A DNA stretch of 64,000 nucleotides from Cyclobacteriaceae bacterium. GTDB lineage: Bacteria; Bacteroidota; Bacteroidia; Cytophagales; Cyclobacteriaceae. The notes beneath the pieces were generated by a model, which worked only from the letters and a program-made list of their open reading frames with translations, was not told where the DNA came from and ran no database searches. The DNA lies in assembly GCA_020436085.1 (NCBI GenBank), contig JAGQYM010000013.1, positions 27,390-91,389 on the forward strand. Reading direction: 5' to 3'. Both the position numbers and the translations under genes were made by a program. Positions 8,402 through 19,355 of this stretch are shown in pieces. Each line of letters opens with the position of its first letter. Within the stretch, counting starts at the first letter, position 1.

Positions 8402-8496
8402 TGACAAATTTGTTTTGGCGCAAAGATATTAATTCAAGAGGTGTATCACCAACGGAGGAGCTCCCGGAAGTGGTCTCGTTTGATTATTATTGTATT

Positions 8497-9018
8497 ATGT
8501 ACAGAAGGGTGAAAGATACAGTCGTGTTCTGCTCGTTGATCGCCATTGGGATGAGTTGCACCGAACCAAAAGAGATGAGTTCCATTGATCCGGTGAATTG
8601 GAACAAACGCACAGTTGGTCACCCGCTCCCCGACTCGCTCACCTCCGGTGAAACATATCTGTCCGTCTATTCCGAAATCTACAGTCGTACTGAGCATCAA
8701 ACCCACGCACTTACCGTTACCGTAAGCATGAGAAATACCGACCCGGTAGATTCCGTTTTCATCACCAAGGCTGAGTACTTCGACACACAGGGTAAACCTA
8801 TTAGAATCTACTTCGAAAAAGCAATCTACCTCGCACCCCTGGAAACAGTAGAAATCGTCATTGATGAAAAAGACCGTGAAGGTGGAACCGGTGGAAATTT
8901 TCTATTCGACTGGTCAATACCCACAACGGCAAGCGAACCCTATTTTGAAGGTGTAATGATTTCAACCTCAGGCCAACAGGGAATTTCCTTTACAACACAA
9001 GGGAAGCGCGTACGGTAG
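8497..9018 (+). CDS. DUF3124 domain lipoprotein
   Basis: This 173-residue protein starts with a signal peptide ending in Gly-Met-Ser-Cys, so it is a likely lipoprotein. The body shows the DUF3124 pattern: YLSVYSEIYSRTEHQTHALT, VSMRNTDPVDSVFIT, YFDTQGKPIR, then GGTGGNFLFDW and a C-terminal ISTSGQQGISFTTQGK. The function is unknown. The frame extends upstream to an ATG at 8401, inside the aguB start, but the lipoprotein signal begins at 8497, so the later start is preferred. It is divergent from aguB, sharing a spacer of about 95 bp. Confidence 0.88.
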   Translation: MYRRVKDTVVFCSLIAIGMSCTEPKEMSSIDPVNWNKRTVGHPLPDSLTSGETYLSVYSEIYSRTEHQTHALTVTVSMRNTDPVDSVFITKAEYFDTQGKPIRIYFEKAIYLAPLETVEIVIDEKDREGGTGGNFLFDWSIPTTASEPYFEGVMISTSGQQGISFTTQGKRVR

Positions 9019-9054
9019 ACAGTTTTGAGTTTTAAGGTTTGAGTTAGCTGCTAG

Positions 9055-9711
9055 TCACTGATAGAGATAATCCTTGATTTGTATATTCTCCAGGACTTGA
9101 GGAGCATCGTGATCTAAGCCGGACTTGAACATCGACTTACCCAACTCCTCGGAAGTGATTGACGTCTTGGCTAGAATGCCTTTGAGCATCGGATAGAGAA
9201 AACGCATCGTCTGATACATCAGGTTGGGTTCTGTTCTTTTCTCTACCGGGTAAATATACCCTGGTCGGAAAAGGTGAAGGTGCTTGAATTCCATTTGGAT
9301 CAGATAGTTTTCCGCCATCCCTTTGTACCTGGCAAAAGACATTTTGGACTTTTCGGTCTGATCTGCACCATCTCCGCTAAGAAAACAAATGGTAACATTA
9401 GGGCTTGCCTTCTTTATTACATCAGCAAATGCCTTTGTATAATCGACAGTGATGGATTTGAATTCTTTATCGGGAAGCTGGCCGGTATAGGCACCAATAC
9501 AAAAGTAGGCCGCATCCAGTTGCTCGAAGTGATAATCAATGGCATCGTAGTTAAGATAGTCTGCATGCACCACTTCATTCAACTTGGCATGAGTCACACC
9601 TGTTGGCTTACGGACGATCGTGGTAACGCGCCTTATCCTTTCACTTTGGAGACATTCTCTTAGGATGATCTTTCCAATCATCCCGGTGCTGCCCATGATC
9701 AATACATTCAT
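9055..9711 (-). CDS. NAD(P)-binding Rossmann-fold protein
   Basis: This 218-residue protein begins with MNVLIMGSTGMIGKIIL, the Gly-rich NAD(P)-binding loop of short-chain atypical reductases, and has AYFCIGAY and FLSGDGADQTEKSKMSFARYKGMAENYL, a Ser/Tyr-Lys-like segment seen in NAD(P)H-binding proteins related to HTATIP2/TIP30. The substrate is unknown. Its ATG overlaps the stop of the upstream GH13 gene by four bases (ATGA), indicating translational coupling, although no metabolic link is obvious. Confidence 0.85.
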   Translation of the reverse strand: MNVLIMGSTGMIGKIILRECLQSERIRRVTTIVRKPTGVTHAKLNEVVHADYLNYDAIDYHFEQLDAAYFCIGAYTGQLPDKEFKSITVDYTKAFADVIKKASPNVTICFLSGDGADQTEKSKMSFARYKGMAENYLIQMEFKHLHLFRPGYIYPVEKRTEPNLMYQTMRFLYPMLKGILAKTSITSEELGKSMFKSGLDHDAPQVLENIQIKDYLYQ

Positions 9712-11423
9712 CTTTTCACAATTACAGCTTCGTAAGGTCGCAAAGTACCATCTGTCCTTGGAGACTCATAATTACCCAAAACCAGGTTTTGATTCGACCA
9801 GTCAATGTCACTGTCTACCCTTCCCTCGCTGTCGCTAAAGTTCAACATCACCGTCCAAAGCTCTCCTTCCCACTCACGTGTGTAAGCGTAAACTGTTTCA
9901 TTGGCTGGGTCAAGTAAGGTGTATTTGCCATACACCAAAACCGGGTTTGACTTTCGAAGGTCAGTCAATTCGCGGAAGTAGTTTAATACAGACTGTGGAT
10001 CATTTTGCTCCTGCTCTACGTTCACTTCCGCGTAATTTGGATTCAGTTCAATCCATGGATCACCGGTAGTGAAGCCTGCCTTGCCTTCGCCATTCCATTG
10101 CATAGGTGTGCGGCCATTGTCGCGGCTGCCAAATTGAAGAGCCTTCATAAAATTATCCAGATCACCTCCGGTATTTTTTATCCTTTGGTATTCGTTTAGT
10201 GCCGCAATGTCTTTGTATTGAGAAATATCTGTAAAGCCAGGATTAGACATACCCAATTCATCACCATAGTAAACATAAGGAGTACCTCTCATGGTGAGGA
10301 TAAAAGTAGACAGCATCTTTGCAGAATAGGCACGGTATTCCGCACTGTCATTGGCATACCGACTCACCATCCGCGCCTGGTCGTGGTTGGCGAGAAAAAT
10401 AGAGAGCCAACCCTTTTCAGCAAAGGCGCTATCCCACTCGGAGAATACCTCCTTAAACTTTAATAGCGAGTATCCTTCTGGCTTCGGAATATCAACCCCA
10501 TCAAATGCATAAGCCATGTTCAGTTCATTCCTATCCGCATCGACAAGGTCATGGGCATCCTGATAAGTCTTGCCTGCGCCTTCAGCCACAGACATCACAT
10601 CATATTTACTAAACACTGCCTGATTCATTTCCTTCAGGTAGTCGTGCAGGTAAGGACCCATCGCATAGAATTCTATGAAGTTGGTGGGCGACAAACCTGG
10701 GTATTCGGGATAAGTGATATCCTTGGATGCAAATTGAAATGCGTCAAGTCTAAATCCATCCACACCTTTATCAGCCCAGAATTTCATAATGTCATACACC
10801 TCTTGTCTTACAGCTGGGTTTTCCCAGTTAAGGTCGGGTTGTTTTCTTGAGAAGTAATGCAAGTAATAGGCATTCGTAGTCGAGTCGTACATCCATGCAT
10901 CGCCATTTACGTCAAACAGACTGTGACGATAAGGTGGCTTTCCCTTTTCTGCTGGCCACCAGTGATAGTAGTCACGGTATTTGTTATCTCTTGAACTTCT
11001 GCTCTGCTTGAACCATTCGTGTTCATCACTGCTGTGATTTACCACCACGTCCATTACTACTTTAATACCTCGTTCGTGAAATCCTTTAAGCATGGCATCG
11101 AAATCTTCCATGGTTCCAAACTCTTTAAGAATCGCGCGATAGTCACTTACGTCATAGCCGTTGTCATCATTGGGAGATTCGTATATTGGATTAAGCCAGA
11201 CTGCTGTGATGCCGAGGCTCTTGATGTAGTCCATCTTGGAGATAATACCCTTCAAGTCCCCTACGCCATCGCCATCACTGTCCTTAAAACTCCGTGGGTA
11301 TATCTGATACACAATAGCTTCTTTCCACCACGTGGTATTGACGGGTTGATCCTTTTTCTGGGTTGGTTCGCAGGACATAGTTATAATTAGCAGGGCTAAG
11401 ATGAGATACTTGAATCTATTCAT
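9708..11423 (-). CDS. GH13 alpha-glucosidase, lipoprotein
   Basis: This protein of about 571 residues starts at 11423, where a signal peptide ends in Ile-Thr-Met-Ser-Cys, so it is a lipoprotein. The mature part opens with WWKEAIVYQIYPRSFKDSDGDGVGDLKGI, the oligo-1,6-glucosidase/alpha-glucosidase start of GH13. The catalytic triad is visible: nucleophile Asp227 in DGFRLDAF, acid/base Glu281 in SVAEGAGKT and Asp348 in ANHDQ. Family members cleave terminal alpha-linked glucose from malto- or isomalto-oligosaccharides. The lipobox implies action at the cell surface or periplasm. A longer reading from 11624 runs through the upstream palindromic repeat and is not credible. Confidence 0.93.
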   Translation of the reverse strand: MNRFKYLILALLIITMSCEPTQKKDQPVNTTWWKEAIVYQIYPRSFKDSDGDGVGDLKGIISKMDYIKSLGITAVWLNPIYESPNDDNGYDVSDYRAILKEFGTMEDFDAMLKGFHERGIKVVMDVVVNHSSDEHEWFKQSRSSRDNKYRDYYHWWPAEKGKPPYRHSLFDVNGDAWMYDSTTNAYYLHYFSRKQPDLNWENPAVRQEVYDIMKFWADKGVDGFRLDAFQFASKDITYPEYPGLSPTNFIEFYAMGPYLHDYLKEMNQAVFSKYDVMSVAEGAGKTYQDAHDLVDADRNELNMAYAFDGVDIPKPEGYSLLKFKEVFSEWDSAFAEKGWLSIFLANHDQARMVSRYANDSAEYRAYSAKMLSTFILTMRGTPYVYYGDELGMSNPGFTDISQYKDIAALNEYQRIKNTGGDLDNFMKALQFGSRDNGRTPMQWNGEGKAGFTTGDPWIELNPNYAEVNVEQEQNDPQSVLNYFRELTDLRKSNPVLVYGKYTLLDPANETVYAYTREWEGELWTVMLNFSDSEGRVDSDIDWSNQNLVLGNYESPRTDGTLRPYEAVIVKR

Positions 11424-12760: not shown

Positions 12761-14299
12761 TTGAATAGATTGTCCTTTCTTCTTGTCCTGCTGTTGGTGC
12801 AGGTGCCGGGCATCGCCCAGGATAACTACATGCAGGTAACAGAGGCACTACAGAAAGCCTTTGATGCTCAAAATCCAGAAGACGGCCTCACCTATCTTAA
12901 TACAGTTGGCAAACAAATAGAGCAGGCTAACGATTCATTGAAATTAGAATTCTTCATTGCTAAAGGCGTAGCACATGGTCAGCTGGGAAATGCTGATTCT
13001 TCTTTCTTCTTCCTGAATCAAGCGCAGCTTATTGCGGAACAAACCTCCAATGATCTGCTGCTAATAAAAGTTTATAACACCCGGGGCCTTGTGCTGATGG
13101 GGATCAACAAATATGAGGACGCACTTAACGTATTTCAAAAAGGACTGGCTATAGGAGAAAATAAGACAGAGCCACGTTACCTTCAGGCAGTTCGGAAAAT
13201 TCTCGGTAACTCCGGGGGAATATTTTATCAGTTGGAACACTACGAAGGCGCACTCCGCCATACGTCAAGAGCACTCGACATATCAGAGCAACTGAATGAT
13301 TCATCGGGCATTGCTTACAACAATCTCCGCCTCGCACTCACGTACCAGGCGATGGACAGCCTTGAGGAGTGTGTTGACCACCTGACCGTATCTAATAAGC
13401 TGCTTCGATCCCTGCAAGACACTACCACCATGCTTTATGTGGAGAACACACTTGGCCTGGTCTATGGAAAGCAGAATCAATACAACAACTCCCTTACCCA
13501 TTACAAGACGGCCCTCCGGCTAGCCTCTTTGATTAAGAATCAGGAAGAGATCATGCACACCAAAGTCTTCATCGCCCGGACGCTGCTGAAACTGAATCAA
13601 TTGAATGAGGCACAAACTTTAGCGCAAGATATTGTAGCTGAGGCCGAGAAAAATGGGATGGCTAATCACAAAGAGTCGGCCTACGACATACTCTACAATA
13701 TTTCGTTGAGCAGAGGACAATGGCAGTCGGCACTTAATTTCAGAAACAAGAGCATTGACGTCAAGGACTCAATTGCTAATGTGGAGGTTAAATCACGGAT
13801 TGCGGAGCTGGAGACGAAATACGAAACCGAAAAGAAGGAAGCTGAGATTATGAGGTTGTCACTAGAGAATGAGCTGAACACCGCCAACCTGGCCAGATCC
13901 CGAAATGCCAACATTGCCATGGCGATAGGTGGTTCACTCACGCTTGCTATTATTATCGTATACTTCACACAAAGACACAAGAAGCAACAAGCGGAAAAGG
14001 AAGCACAAGAACTACAAATTGAAGCCCTCAAAAAGAGGTTTATGGAACTTCATGCCAGTCCTGCGGAGTTAGCCGTAGCGCTGGAGTTTCATGAGCTTAA
14101 CAGCAAACTGAACACCAAACTCACGGAGCGCGAATTTGAGGCGTTGAAGCTGAGCCTGGAGGGAAAGACCAACAGCGAAATAGCCGATCTTTTGTTCATT
14201 TCTGTCAGCACCGTGAAGTTTCACCTGCGGAATACCTACTCAAAAATGGGTGTGGGTAACAGGAAAGAGGCTTTCCAGCTGATGCTTAAAACAAGCTGA
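12761..14299 (+). CDS. Membrane-bound TPR-LuxR one-component regulator
   Basis: The 512-residue protein begins at a TTG (12761): no ATG exists between the upstream in-frame stop and the signal peptide (MNRLSFLLVLLLVQVPGIAQ). After it come about six TPR-like helical pairs (residues 30-350), a coiled coil, one membrane span (about 382-401, NIAMAIGGSLTLAIIIVYF), a second coiled coil, and a C-terminal LuxR/GerE helix-turn-helix (about 453-512, LTEREFEALKLSLEGKTNSEIADLL, then VSTVKFHLRNTYSKMGV). The layout suggests that a periplasmic TPR sensor controls DNA binding on the inside without a phosphorelay. This architecture recurs in Bacteroidota. The next gene, the ELWxxDGT protein, is a possible target by position only. 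Confidence 0.9.
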   Translation: MNRLSFLLVLLLVQVPGIAQDNYMQVTEALQKAFDAQNPEDGLTYLNTVGKQIEQANDSLKLEFFIAKGVAHGQLGNADSSFFFLNQAQLIAEQTSNDLLLIKVYNTRGLVLMGINKYEDALNVFQKGLAIGENKTEPRYLQAVRKILGNSGGIFYQLEHYEGALRHTSRALDISEQLNDSSGIAYNNLRLALTYQAMDSLEECVDHLTVSNKLLRSLQDTTTMLYVENTLGLVYGKQNQYNNSLTHYKTALRLASLIKNQEEIMHTKVFIARTLLKLNQLNEAQTLAQDIVAEAEKNGMANHKESAYDILYNISLSRGQWQSALNFRNKSIDVKDSIANVEVKSRIAELETKYETEKKEAEIMRLSLENELNTANLARSRNANIAMAIGGSLTLAIIIVYFTQRHKKQQAEKEAQELQIEALKKRFMELHASPAELAVALEFHELNSKLNTKLTEREFEALKLSLEGKTNSEIADLLFISVSTVKFHLRNTYSKMGVGNRKEAFQLMLKTS

Positions 14300-14404
14300 T
14301 CATCAACCCTTTACAAACTATTTACATAGAACTAACCCGCAGGGTCAGGTAAATTCTTTACTCATTTTTGGAGGTTCATGGCATTATCAACCAAAACTAA
14401 TGTC

Positions 14405-17400
14405 ATGAAAAGAATTACACACACTTTCTCGATCATGCTTTTGCTTGGAATACTTCATTTCCATGCAAAGGCACAAATTGAACTGGTTGCCGATCTGGCT
14501 CCAGGGACGGAATCCGAAGTTATTGGATTTGAAAATGAATGGGATGAAAACCTATTCATTTTAGGTGATCAACTTTTATTTATTCTGAGGGACCATCCTT
14601 TGTATGGCACTGAACTTTGGCGAATGGGCACTGACGAACAGATAACATTGGTCAAAGACTTACAACCTGGCCTTGGAGGCGGCTTGGAAAATACCACTAT
14701 TATGCTTTTTAATAACCTCGCCTATTTTCTTGGAAAAGATTCCAATGGAGTTCATTCGCTTTACCAAACAGACGGCACTAGCGAGGGAACAGTAGTGGTA
14801 AAAGAACTCTATGATTCCGAAATAGAAAACTTAAGCAGTCATCATGTAGTAAATGGTAAGCTCTTATTCCATATATCAATCAGCGAGGGTCAACGGGATC
14901 TGTGGGTGACGGATGGCACCGCTGACGGAACTGAGATTCTAACAGCCAATATAAATGTTGGTGATGCTATAAACATTGGCAATCAGGCTCTGGTAAGTGG
15001 TTATGATGAGATTCACGGCAATGAGCTTTGGGTTACTGATGGCACTGAAGCAGGAACTCATCTTTTCAAAGAGCTCAACCCAGGTACTGAAAATGGTGAC
15101 CCTTATAATTTTTATAAATCAAGCATAGGAATATTTTTTCAGGGAAACACAGTAGCAGAGGGCCGTGAATTATGGATGACCGATGGCACGGTTGAAGGTA
15201 CCGTTCTGGTCAAAGATATTAGGGATGATTCTCCAGGAAATGGCAGCAATCCCCATGACTTTACTGAATTAGATGGAATAATATTTTTTACAGCAGACAA
15301 TGCTTTGTGGAAAACAGATGGCACAGAGTTAGGTACTGAATTGGTTGTTAGCGGTGATCCCAATAACCCGGAATATCTATTTGCCTATGATGGTGAATTG
15401 TATTTCAATGCACAAGGTGGTAGTAATGTCTTTTTTGAATTATATAAAACAGATGGATCCACTACCACGCTAGTCAAAGATATTAATACCCCTTCCAACA
15501 GCTCTAGCCCAAAAGCCCATTTCATAATTGGTGATACTCACTACTTTTTTGCCTATGACAATACTGCTACAGGCTTATGGACAACGGATGGAACTGAGGA
15601 AGGAACTACACTAATCAAACATCTGTACGATGGATCTCTTTTCCCTGCCAACATTAAGTCAGAATCAAACCCTACTTTATTTAATGGTAATTATTATTTC
15701 AATATCTCAAATCAACTTTGGCGCACAGATGGCACCGAAGTAGGGACTGTAGAAATAAATCACAGTGTAAATGTGCCTATTGATTCAAGTCCTTTGAACT
15801 TCATTGAAACTCCGCTGGGAACATTCTTTGCAGCATTTGTTAATGGTGACCCCCACCTATTTGTAACTGATGGCGATGCACTAACTGACCTTAGCGAGGC
15901 TGGATTTGTGCTGAATGGGGAACCCGAAGAAATCAACAGCGACTTTATTTTCTACAACAACAAACTCATCTTCAGTGGGTACACAGCCGAAGAAGGTGAA
16001 GAGCCCTGGATTACTGATGGTACACTGGCGGGAACTCATCTGATAAAGGATGTGAACACATTTGACCTTTTTGGTGGAGCGAGAGAATTCTTTGAGTTCA
16101 ATGAGAAGGTTTACTTCCGCGCCAAGAATGCGGGCAGCAATGATTTCGAATTATTCGTAACCGATGGTACTGAAGGAGGCACAAGTCTGGTAAAAGATAT
16201 CAATACTGGAATCCAGCCTTCTCATCCCAACGGCTTTGGAATCATAGGAGATAAAATGTATTTCGAAGCGTTTACCACAACCTATGGCAGTGAGTTATGG
16301 GAAACAGATGGAACAGAGGAAGGCACAAAGTTGGTGGTTGACTTGCGCGCTGGTAACCCTGGCGCTATCCATGATGTTCAGGCTTACTATTTTGGTAAAG
16401 TTTTTTTTACAGCTTATGTATCAGCCGGAGTCGGTACTGAGCTTTATTTTTCTGATGGGACTGAGCTTGGTACAGGATTGCTCTACGAAATTGGCCCTGG
16501 TGGCAATACGGGTGGAATTCAAGATGGAACTTTTATAAAGTTACCTACTAAATTGGTGTTCACAGCCAATGATGGTACCATTTGGTCAACTGAAGGAACT
16601 CCGGAAACCACTTTCCAAATACTTAACGAAGAATACACTGCTACCACATCATATCGATATTCTGTAGGTGTCATCAATGAAAAATATGTGTTCGTTGCAC
16701 AAGACAATGAAGATGACACACATTACATTTTTGCTACTGATGGAACTATTGAAAATACTGTAGCACTTGCATCCGGCTTCACTTACGATGATGACAACAT
16801 CTATGAATTATCGAATGGCAGATACCTCTATTCCGCTGAAATTGATGGTAAGTTATATTTTACAACTGGTTTTGGCATTCACTCTACAGATGGAACAGTT
16901 GCCGGAACTTCCTACTTTGGGGAAGGTAAAAATGGCACCTCGTTTAATGCATTATACCCTGCAACACTTAATGGAAAATTATATTTTACCGGATTTGAAG
17001 AAGGAAGTACCACAGAAACGCTGTTTGTCTCCGATGGTACAAGCTCAGGCACACAAGCACTGGACAATGGTGGTGTGGCTGTAAAAGGTTTACTCCAGCC
17101 AATAGCAGATTACCTCTACTTCGCAGGATATGACTTTGAGTTTGGTCAGGAGTTGTATCGATTCAACACTACGCTCGAAACCCAGCAAATCACCTTCAAC
17201 TCCATCGAGGATCAATTCCTGGAAGCAGGAACATTAACACTTTCGGCCAATGCTTCTTCAGGTCTTCCTGTAAGTTTCAGCGTAGTGAGCGGACCAGTAA
17301 CCCTCAGCGGCAACATTTTGTCATTTACCGGTTTGGGTGTAGTAACTGTAAGTGCGAGCCAGGCGGGTAACAATCAATACTTTGCTGCAAGTCCTGTGGA

Positions 17401-17665
17401 GCAGTCGTTTGAGATCATCTCGGTTACGGGACTAGAACGTGAGTCCTCGCCTATCATCATCTATCCAAACCCAGCAACGGATGTGCTCACAATCCAGACG
17501 GAGCAAAGAGACGTGTTCATCAAGTTGTTCAACATCCACGGTGGCGAGGTGATGGATATTCAACCCAATGTTGGAAACAGGATATCGCACCTGGCAAACG
17601 GGATCTACATCGTGCGAATCTCCGGTACCCATGGATTCACTTCTCGAAAAATTATCAAAAAGTAA
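14405..17665 (+). CDS. ELWxxDGT-repeat surface protein with T9SS sorting domain
   Basis: This protein of about 1086 residues has a signal peptide (MKRITHTFSIMLLLGILHFHAKA), then at least 18 repeats of about 45-60 residues, each marked by a variant of Glu-Leu-Trp-x-x-Asp-Gly-Thr-x-x-Gly-Thr, as in DLWVTDGTADGT, ELWMTDGTVEGT and EPWITDGTLAGT. An Ig-like domain (about 928-1006) and a type A T9SS C-terminal domain (from about 1010, IIIYPNPATDVLTI, ending in RKIIKK) follow. The repeat is known from Bacteroidota surface proteins and is probably a beta-propeller or beta-helix; the ligand is unknown. An ATG at 14378, preceded by GGAGG, would add nine residues. The lipoprotein gene follows 11 bp downstream. 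Confidence 0.92.
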   Translation: MKRITHTFSIMLLLGILHFHAKAQIELVADLAPGTESEVIGFENEWDENLFILGDQLLFILRDHPLYGTELWRMGTDEQITLVKDLQPGLGGGLENTTIMLFNNLAYFLGKDSNGVHSLYQTDGTSEGTVVVKELYDSEIENLSSHHVVNGKLLFHISISEGQRDLWVTDGTADGTEILTANINVGDAINIGNQALVSGYDEIHGNELWVTDGTEAGTHLFKELNPGTENGDPYNFYKSSIGIFFQGNTVAEGRELWMTDGTVEGTVLVKDIRDDSPGNGSNPHDFTELDGIIFFTADNALWKTDGTELGTELVVSGDPNNPEYLFAYDGELYFNAQGGSNVFFELYKTDGSTTTLVKDINTPSNSSSPKAHFIIGDTHYFFAYDNTATGLWTTDGTEEGTTLIKHLYDGSLFPANIKSESNPTLFNGNYYFNISNQLWRTDGTEVGTVEINHSVNVPIDSSPLNFIETPLGTFFAAFVNGDPHLFVTDGDALTDLSEAGFVLNGEPEEINSDFIFYNNKLIFSGYTAEEGEEPWITDGTLAGTHLIKDVNTFDLFGGAREFFEFNEKVYFRAKNAGSNDFELFVTDGTEGGTSLVKDINTGIQPSHPNGFGIIGDKMYFEAFTTTYGSELWETDGTEEGTKLVVDLRAGNPGAIHDVQAYYFGKVFFTAYVSAGVGTELYFSDGTELGTGLLYEIGPGGNTGGIQDGTFIKLPTKLVFTANDGTIWSTEGTPETTFQILNEEYTATTSYRYSVGVINEKYVFVAQDNEDDTHYIFATDGTIENTVALASGFTYDDDNIYELSNGRYLYSAEIDGKLYFTTGFGIHSTDGTVAGTSYFGEGKNGTSFNALYPATLNGKLYFTGFEEGSTTETLFVSDGTSSGTQALDNGGVAVKGLLQPIADYLYFAGYDFEFGQELYRFNTTLETQQITFNSIEDQFLEAGTLTLSANASSGLPVSFSVVSGPVTLSGNILSFTGLGVVTVSASQAGNNQYFAASPVEQSFEIISVTGLERESSPIIIYPNPATDVLTIQTEQRDVFIKLFNIHGGEVMDIQPNVGNRISHLANGIYIVRISGTHGFTSRKIIKK

Positions 17666-17676
17666 ACCTCACGATC

Positions 17677-18126
17677 ATGACGACTATAAAATATATCTTC
17701 TCAATACTTCTTTTTGTCGGGCTTCTTGGCGTTACCGGCTGCCGGAAGAAATCGGACGACCCCGGCCCCACGGCACTAGACCTGCGGTTGGAGGAACTAA
17801 TGAATGATGGCACCAACTGGGTTCTTGGAAGCGATGGCGTAACCAAGGATGGTCTGGACGTTACAGATCAGTTTGCAGGATTTAAACTGACAATCGGCAA
17901 CAAAACCTACAGCACCGTGAATGGGCTAAGTCCTGTATGGGAACCCACAGGAACTTGGGATTTCCAAAGTGATAACCCAGATTTGATCGTACGTGATGGC
18001 TCTACTCAAGTGACCGTGAACCTTTCAACAAGTGCGTTGACTTTAATCTTCACCGCAGCCGGAGTTCCCGGAGGTAGGGTAAAGTCAGTATCTGGCGAAT
18101 ACCAGTTTCACCTGGTAAGTGAGTAA
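17677..18126 (+). CDS. Hypothetical lipoprotein downstream of ELWxxDGT gene
   Basis: This 149-residue protein has a signal peptide ending in Gly-Val-Thr-Gly-Cys, so it is a lipoprotein. The mature part contains LNDGTNWVLG-like and GTWDFQSDNPDLIVRDGS segments that suggest a small beta-barrel or lipocalin-like fold as found in many Bacteroidota lipoproteins. I do not recognise the family. It is 11 bp behind the ELWxxDGT gene and likely shares its transcript, so it may be a membrane partner for the surface protein. Its 3' side faces the 21-22-bp repeat array. Confidence 0.75.
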   Translation: MTTIKYIFSILLFVGLLGVTGCRKKSDDPGPTALDLRLEELMNDGTNWVLGSDGVTKDGLDVTDQFAGFKLTIGNKTYSTVNGLSPVWEPTGTWDFQSDNPDLIVRDGSTQVTVNLSTSALTLIFTAAGVPGGRVKSVSGEYQFHLVSE

Positions 18127-18206
18127 GTGTGTGTAATGTCAGCTGCCCTGCTTCTATTTTTTAGAGGTGGGGCGCTGACGTTCTTTGACTTGCGTCCATG
18201 ATGAAT

Positions 18207-18730
18207 GGTTAACAAGATCGCTCCCTCATCAACCATATCGTAAACACACGGTGCCATGTCAAGCAACATAGGGTACCAGGTCCTGGCTATCTGGTGGCGT
18301 ATCTGAAAGTGTATGGTACCAAGGTTAAAGTTGACGCTGGCATATCTTGTTCTATACGCAACCAGGGGTGATTGTGTATGGTACCATATCTTGTAGTGGA
18401 TGGTATCAACCCTAAAAAAAATGGTATCAAGGTGTGACATATACCCTATCAGGGGGAAGTTGTACGGTCACGGGTATTGTAGTGAGTGGTGCCAGGGGTA
18501 AAAGTGAGACAGCCAGGGTGTAAAGTGACGGAGGCTACCCCTAAAGTATACCCATGCAATTGTTGTTTGTACAGAGACATGTCATAAAGTGCGGCAGACA
18601 ATTGTTGTTTGCACACAGCCAGGGTGTAAAGTGACAGAGGCTACCCCTAAGGTATACCCACACAATTCTTGTTTGTACACAGGCATGTCATGAAGTGCGG
18701 CAGACAATTGTTGCTCGCACGCGGCCGGGT
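18207..18730. repeat. Degenerate 21-22-bp tandem array with 106-bp higher-order repeat
   Basis: The 616-bp gap between two convergent genes is filled by about 24 tandem units of 20-22 bp. Units begin near 18250, 18272, 18294, 18315, 18336, 18358, 18380, 18402, 18423, 18444, 18466, 18488, 18509, 18530, 18552, 18573, 18593, 18615, 18636, 18658, 18679 and 18699. A typical unit starts GGTACCA or GGTATCA and ends TAAAGTGAC, TTGTTTGTAC or similar. A five-unit block (18509-18614) is duplicated at 18615-18720 with about ten differences, giving a 106-bp period. Mixed 21- and 22-bp units break any reading frame, and there are no unique spacers as in CRISPR. The function is unknown. Confidence 0.85.
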
Positions 18731-18742
18731 CATCCCATGGAT

Positions 18743-19246
18743 TTAACTTCCTCCAAGCGCTCTAATTCGATCGTTAATTTCCTTTTTTCTTCTTTGAAAA
18801 TTGGATTCATCGGAGGAACTCCAGTTGTTCTTGTTTTTTCGGCTGCCTCTCACCTCCTCAAGTGAGGTAAGCTCTTGCCTCAGTCTACTGATTTCTTGTG
18901 AGCTGGCCGTGGAATTGGTATTGGTGGACGTACCCTGGCTTGTCTTTTGTTTCTCTAATTCACGATTTCGTCTTTCCATTTCCTCCTGCTGTTGAACAGT
19001 CTTTTTCCTACGCTCCAAATCCGATATTTCTTTATTGATGGCATTGGTCTTTTTGTTGTAGGCACTTTCAAAAACTGAAGTCCAGGTTCTGTTGGCCTTC
19101 ATGGTCGCTCTTTGGGAGTTCATGGTAACTTTTTCTTTCTCCAGATCGGCAATTCTTTGAGCGATCGCGCTGCTGGTGCCCTGAGAATAACCTTGCATGC
19201 AAATGGCAAACAAAGCGAGGGTGATCAAATGCCTTAAGCTATTCAT
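18743..19246 (-). CDS. Exported coiled-coil protein with internal duplication
   Basis: This 167-residue protein has a signal peptide (to about residue 22) and is otherwise mostly charged helix. Two stretches look like copies: residues 31-78 (RIADLEKEK..., NRTWTSVFESAYNKK, INKEISDLE) and 118-165 (EISRLRQEL..., KNNWSSSDESNFQRR, KEINDRIRAL), separated by a Gln/Lys-rich helix and a Ser/Thr/Asn linker. I do not recognise a family. It is likely a small periplasmic coiled-coil protein. Its stop codon lies only 12 bp from the end of the 21-22-bp repeat array. Confidence 0.75.
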   Translation of the reverse strand: MNSLRHLITLALFAICMQGYSQGTSSAIAQRIADLEKEKVTMNSQRATMKANRTWTSVFESAYNKKTNAINKEISDLERRKKTVQQQEEMERRNRELEKQKTSQGTSTNTNSTASSQEISRLRQELTSLEEVRGSRKNKNNWSSSDESNFQRRKKEINDRIRALGGS

Positions 19247-19355
19247 TATTGTGTGGTTGAGTGTATAGACAGGATAATACTAAACATAAATAATGCCAAG
19301 GCCATTACCAAGCATAGCCAGCCAGCGATTTACTTGTTCAGCAACGATTCGATCG

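Follow-up and report, generated by a model that had tools for sequence, protein, structure and literature searches.

The intergenic spacer at 18127-18742 of the window (the whole 64,000-nucleotide stretch analysed, G000:C44:27390-91389, from the 4.42-Mb, 191-contig draft genome of a Cyclobacteriaceae bacterium) is largely occupied by short degenerate repeats, which raises the question of what such an array is and whether its regular spacing serves a purpose between two convergent genes. The left-hand gene (17677-18126, plus strand, 149 aa) has a lipoprotein-like start, judged by eye, and the convergent right-hand gene (18743-19246, minus strand) encodes 167 aa; neither product matched Pfam, and the latter was found in one of 62 genus genomes (E 1e-5), namely this genome itself. 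A gene similar to the left-hand one is located on contig C132 (L014, about 1384-1828), with no array seen after it. Further to the left, positions 14378-17665 of the window encode a 1095-aa protein that is full of ELWxTDGTxxGT repeats and carries a Por secretion tail (Pfam PF18962).

The spacer was examined by TRF, autocorrelation, a fitted 22-column unit model and Fourier spectra. The array extends over 18229-18729 and is non-coding; its full units number about 22, each 21 or 22 bp long (21.5 on average). Two further copies, treated below, lie elsewhere in the genome; all three are named after their contigs, the window copy being C44 and the others C77 and C151. The fitted model placed its full units from 18250 onward, where the homology common to the three copies begins, and one weak unit before them (18229-18249, plus strand, unit model score 4.9), where the alignment of C151 and C77 with the window copy ends. 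An isolated model match outside the array, at 18114, was left out of the unit count. The fitted consensus, GGTACCATGTTTAAATGTACAC, is 21 or 22 bp long and holds ~10 bits per unit. The left half (18250-18508, plus strand) consists of 12 GGTACCA-type units, each of 21 or 22 bp, recognised from landmarks, autocorrelation and the unit model; the landmarks fall where an earlier note on this DNA had placed them, at 18250, 18272, 18315, 18380, 18402, 18423 and 18488. There follow, on the same strand, a five-unit block of 106 bp (18509-18614), its second occurrence (18615-18720) and the mere start of a third (18721-18729), which breaks off in C44, its counterpart in C151 continuing, diverged, toward the flanking gene's stop codon. 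TRF and a repeat search recovered this duplication. Its two blocks agree at 96/106 positions in C44 (ten differences, about as many as reported before), 99/106 in C151 and 71/106 in C77. The blocks of C44 and C151 look as if homogenised, unlike those of C77. The 96% likeness of C44 and C151 is confined to the arrays, and gene conversion inside them could, at a guess, explain it. The first 13 units gave no sign of a five-unit higher-order repeat running through the whole array, and mean pairwise unit identity within the arrays was 0.41-0.54. The array described in the earlier note is therefore real, with a unit number nearer 22-23 by the fitted model than the ~24 given there; the spacer, which had been called almost wholly periodic, is periodic over 18229-18729, its first ~100 bp (18127-18228) lying outside the array.

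Autocorrelation of 18127-18742 was compared with 300 dinucleotide shuffles, for which the 95% limit on the largest shuffled z was 3.45. The top lags were 106 (z 6.6), 43 (5.0), 21 (3.8) and 108 (3.5), each of which exceeded the limit singly, so that the proposed period near 21-22 bp held against shuffled sequence; lags 42 (z 3.3), 22 (3.2) and 64 (2.9) were also raised. The duplication-free part (18230-18508) gave, on its own, z 5.2 at lag 22 and 4.8 at lag 43 (limit 3.5). The twelve highest lags of C77 (43, 21, 86, 22, 108, 216, 106, 64, 65, 194, 130 and 152) all lay at most 2 bp from a multiple of 21.6, and because they fit these multiples up to 216, the phase is coherent across ~10 units in this copy. 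Lags 321 (z 2.6) and 343 (z 2.9) were weakly raised in C44, beside non-multiples such as 209 and 102. Over the whole copies, Fourier analysis revealed an A+T period of 21.1-21.4 bp (z 7.6, 12.8 and 14.0; limits 6.3-6.4); in the left halves alone, this period stayed under its limit (z 5.1 and 5.2).

The locus, which had been noted as a single one, is not alone. Searching the genome itself returned two further copies at C151:14781-15261 (96%) and C77:61425-61883 (78%). Once in the right orientation, C44, C151 and C77 are collinear unit by unit, with C151 and C77 extending beyond C44 at the ends and the shared part collinear in all three, while their flanks are unrelated except for ~40 extra left-side bases common to C151 and C77. 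The first 25 shared bases (window 18250-18274) are the same in C44 and C77 and form the longest unchanged run among the 474 compared. A unit-level model (R1) run on the same genome, with 150 of 664 first-look candidates scored, recovered the three arrays, the best at E 7e-9, with no other match below E 0.4; its matches on contigs C114 and C145 (E 0.4-0.8) were rejected, as they had no period at the match. A generic period scan covered 434,180 bases of this genome (51 peaks) and 400,000 bases of the congener G070 (84 peaks); among the 25 listed peaks per genome, the non-coding ones at 21.5 were the C77 and window arrays, C151 appearing as 35.5. One G070 region (L086), in which lags 21 and 42 were raised, was set aside, its significance being borderline and its lags multiples of three. 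Elsewhere in G070 (L094, G070:C1:3200001-3220000, about 8919-9360), head-to-tail units of ~121 bp resemble, by eye, a truncated tRNA gene end and adjoin what appears, also by eye, to be a fuller copy.

Relatives searched with the 1570-bp locus gave no match in 38 other genomes. The unit model found no array in 389 other family genomes or in 394 other genomes of a phylum sample, overlapping sets searched with stricter filters and with 13 of several hundred first-look candidates scored per listed genome, such that weak arrays there could have escaped. A genus search with the C77 copy matched 3 of 61 other genomes over 20-32 bases (E about 0.008); these matches (L017-L019) are short, apparently within genes and lack a 21.5-bp period at the match, and were not accepted as arrays. 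Exact patterns (two per collection) were absent from genome_contigs and viral_contigs, and BLAST against plasmids and phages returned nothing, in collections where the records nearest the window genome may be absent. With congeners this remote (aminopeptidase identity 78% at best), absence from them says little about the age of the array. What the searches delineate is an apparently species-restricted, dispersed, non-coding element of ~0.5-0.6 kb, with three copies found.

We then considered the borders and insertion sites. C151 has inverted ends of 11 bp (TTGAAATCCGA at L002:1403-1413, inverted at 2016-2026; P 0.003) and C77 has inverted ends of 9 bp (TGAAATAAT at L003:1430-1438, inverted at 1987-1995; P 0.047), both P values coming from simple shuffles of author-chosen windows. 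The right-hand members of both pairs fall within the final codons of the gene next to the copy. These ends are missing from C44, where the longest inverted end match is 7 bp and the stretch homologous to C151 runs from 18250 to 18729, both limits lying inside the array; at the gene end at 18739-18747 (minus strand), GTTAAATCC resembles the C151 TTGAAATCC ends weakly, by eye. The short inverted ends would represent the borders of a mobile unit. With borders uncertain, the longest direct matches at the ends measured 5, 6 and 7 bp where shuffling gave means of 5.9-6.6, and no clear target duplication emerged. The left-end pattern occurs nowhere else in the genome with fewer than three mismatches, and its matches on contigs C103 and C125 (three mismatches each) showed no array by eye. 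No mobility gene was recognised among the listed open frames beside the three copies (by eye, with eight proteins scanned against Pfam). On contig C151, some 2 kb away from the copy there, L063 10745-12445 holds a gene pair that encodes, as judged by eye, an apparent DNA methyltransferase and a possible restriction partner.

The C77 site was compared with congeners. Its flanking gene encodes an M24 aminopeptidase, found in 11 of them, 10 readable and one cut off. The C-terminus is RPVVELK, against RPAVELPLKK in the closest congener, and varies among the 10 congeners compared. The aminopeptidase stop is followed within 1-32 bp by a same-direction open frame in 9 of the 10 readable congeners; in the remaining locus (L053), several hundred bases follow it. 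In the window genome, the aminopeptidase is followed by the C77 array and then by a different gene, and the best homologue (60%) of the congener partner is on contig C22.

The spacing of the units stayed fixed across copies while their letters changed. A gapless alignment of C44 with C77 has 110 differences over 474 positions, and when gaps were allowed, the internal ones amounted to a compensating pair ~10 bases apart. The ratios of mismatches to gap openings in BLAST were 97:2 for C44-C77, 109:2 for C77-C151 and 20:1 for C44-C151. As a control, we took all other repeat pairs that were 80-900 bases long, 65-98% identical and free, in at least one member, of any open frame above 110 aa. The control search covered roughly one tenth of the genome, and all 14 pairs belonged to a single family on contig C191. 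This second non-coding repeat family (L069, G000:C191:100001-120000, at 8447-8824, 10275-10647 and 13249-14416) has GGAGACACTTCG / CAGTGTCTC-type palindromes and indel-rich copies about 70-92% alike. With redundant pairs included, the eight array pairs totalled 310:5 and the 14 control pairs 365:60, the control repeats carrying roughly tenfold more gaps per mismatch. Three long control pairs (62:9, 61:12 and 27:4) differed from C44-C77 with Fisher P values of 0.009, 0.001 and 0.029, which are not independent, as these pairs share copies. This single C191 family, which is the whole control, contains palindromes, and some of its pairs have a 113-162 aa open frame in one member; indels may accumulate in it more rapidly than in ordinary DNA.

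A second yardstick came from mutation rates. Dividing the values given in Table 1 of one survey, we obtained an indel to substitution ratio of about 0.10-0.36 in seven bacteria (PMC4978911), which predicts at least 11 indels for the C44-C77 divergence. The probability of at most two indels among 110 substitutions was 0.0012 at a ratio of 0.10, 0.09 at 0.05 and 0.62 at 0.02. Selection on the spacing, rather than mutation bias or substitution-only copying, would be the simplest reading, and the near absence of indels lends indirect support to the helically phased binding array that had been suggested as a role for this DNA.

Column conservation in the unit was also uneven, with a GGTACCA core. 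The simulation P values were 0.003 (C44) and 0/300 (C77) for the first 12 units and 0.017 (C44) and 0.003 (C77) for 17 units, measured on units that were gapped by the fitted model and share ancestry. The core did not evolve significantly more slowly between C44 and C77 (15/84 vs 44/172, random-phase P 0.11; rank correlation P 0.16), and dyad symmetry of the unit was not significant (P 0.14). Consensus positions changed less between these two copies than the others (41/244 vs 64/206, or 17% and 31%); a hand estimate of neutral decay gave ~16% vs 28%, near the observed values, and we did not count the contrast as selection because neutral decay predicts about the same.

This agreement fits a functionless minisatellite inside a MITE-like element, produced by tandem duplication, copied to three places and now decaying by drift. 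The restriction to three copies in one genome, with none detected elsewhere, and the ragged ends point the same way, and intergenic minisatellite-MITEs offer a precedent (PMC4596501). Against it stand the spacing fixed over 110 differences and the uneven column conservation; moreover, units 41-54% alike on average should have lost phase under free indels. We regard decay by drift as doubtful, but as a serious contender.

That precedent, BrickBuilt of Porphyromonas gingivalis, is a minisatellite within a MITE and, by its published anatomy, the nearest known kind (PMC4596501). According to the same description (PMC4596501), BrickBuilt is intergenic and dispersed, has no BLASTn relatives outside its species, and contains direct repeats of 23 nt, close in length to ours, that follow one another in tandem with no spacers; the present element shares this arrangement as well as the dispersed intergenic location. 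Short inverted ends, which some BrickBuilt copies have, may be a further likeness, the candidate ones of the present element being weak, and a target-site duplication is reported for only some BrickBuilt copies (PMC4596501). The differences are considerable. One strain has 19 BrickBuilt copies against three here, and the units carry 0-11% mismatches, whereas the present ones are only 41-54% alike (PMC4596501). BrickBuilt repeat number expands and contracts between strains, while here order and spacing are fixed in the shared part; BrickBuilt also has leader and tail segments, and long stem-loops are predicted for it, whereas our element lacks an unusually stable fold (PMC4596501). The host is probably of the same phylum as the window genome, which its Por secretion-tail protein places in Bacteroidota. 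Searches of open-licence literature on intergenic tandem repeats, helically phased repeats, minisatellites, MITEs and iteron-like arrays brought up no recognised description of this element.

Could the array instead act as RNA, transcribed as the 3' tail of the neighbouring gene and governing its termination or decay? The same array end faces the neighbour's stop codon, within about 50 bp, in all three copies; however, the neighbouring genes converge at two of the three sites, so any intergenic insert there lies near a stop. Fold stability under RNA parameters was unremarkable relative to shuffled sequence, with z of -0.72 and 0.03 for the two strands of C44, and 0.02 and -0.55 for one strand each of C77 and C151. 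Rfam returned no match up to E 1 for window positions 17600-19300, and scanning of C44 and C77 gave no terminator. These results run counter to the RNA structure at a 3' end that the earlier note had listed among the candidate roles, and make a 3'-UTR element improbable. A Bacteroidota-type promoter pattern matched twice in the window, at no point within the array, and sigma-70-like matches numbered two in C44 (shuffled mean 1.3) and four in C77 (1.6, sd 1.2).

An iteron array or partition site, captured by the chromosome as a plasmid or phage remnant, would explain the unit length, which equals that of the 22-bp iterons of R6K and pPS10 (PMC4980987). The array shares with theta-plasmid iterons such as those of R6K direct repeats near 22 bp (PMC4980987), within the 17-22 bp range and at near-integral helical spacing. 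It differs from them in being chromosomal, dispersed and far more diverged, and in having more than 20 units rather than two to seven. The plasmid and phage collections yielded no match, the three copies lie at unrelated genes, and Rep_3 (PF01051), the one initiator family covered, was not detected in the genome at E 0.01; the chance of such a remnant is slender. REP/BIME and related repeats are dispersed, non-coding, intergenic and located near gene ends, as the present copies are, but they are palindromic, unlike our units, which lack significant dyad symmetry. A coding or pseudogene repeat, for which 21 bp would make seven codons, is practically untenable, since 22-bp units are kept between copies, each copy has stops in every one of its six frames, and the C44-C77 differences are spread over codon positions without phase (35/37/37), in line with the non-coding nature claimed from the start.

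The reading we prefer, with a probability of roughly 0.45, is that of a species-restricted, dispersed and probably MITE-like element, with its phased direct repeats as a candidate protein-binding track whose spacing is under selection. It is supported by the three collinear copies with unrelated flanks, the phase over ~10 units in C77, the A+T period, the TIR-like ends in C151 and C77, and the presence of C77 at a site where congeners have an adjacent gene. The element would offer at least 22 direct repeats placed 21 or 22 bp apart, or two helical turns, and selection would keep this spacing while the letters drift. From spacing kept under drifting letters, we infer that a protein may bind successive units along one face of the DNA, by analogy with plasmid iterons, on which initiators form cooperative complexes; the bound protein could likewise form a cooperative filament or complex. 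Separating two iterons by half a helical turn abolishes cooperative binding in that system (PMC4980987). A bolder version, which we think unlikely, would make the mobile element a helically phased protein-binding track set directly behind genes, a portable nucleoid or transcription-boundary site whose spacing is held by a filament-forming protein.

Intergenic minisatellites, BrickBuilt among them, are generally regarded as variable in length; here, three dispersed copies hold unit order and spacing despite more than 20% sequence change. With the unit spacing fixed, helical phasing becomes open to a simple test, and the array could lead to a DNA-binding protein that responds to spacing more than to sequence.
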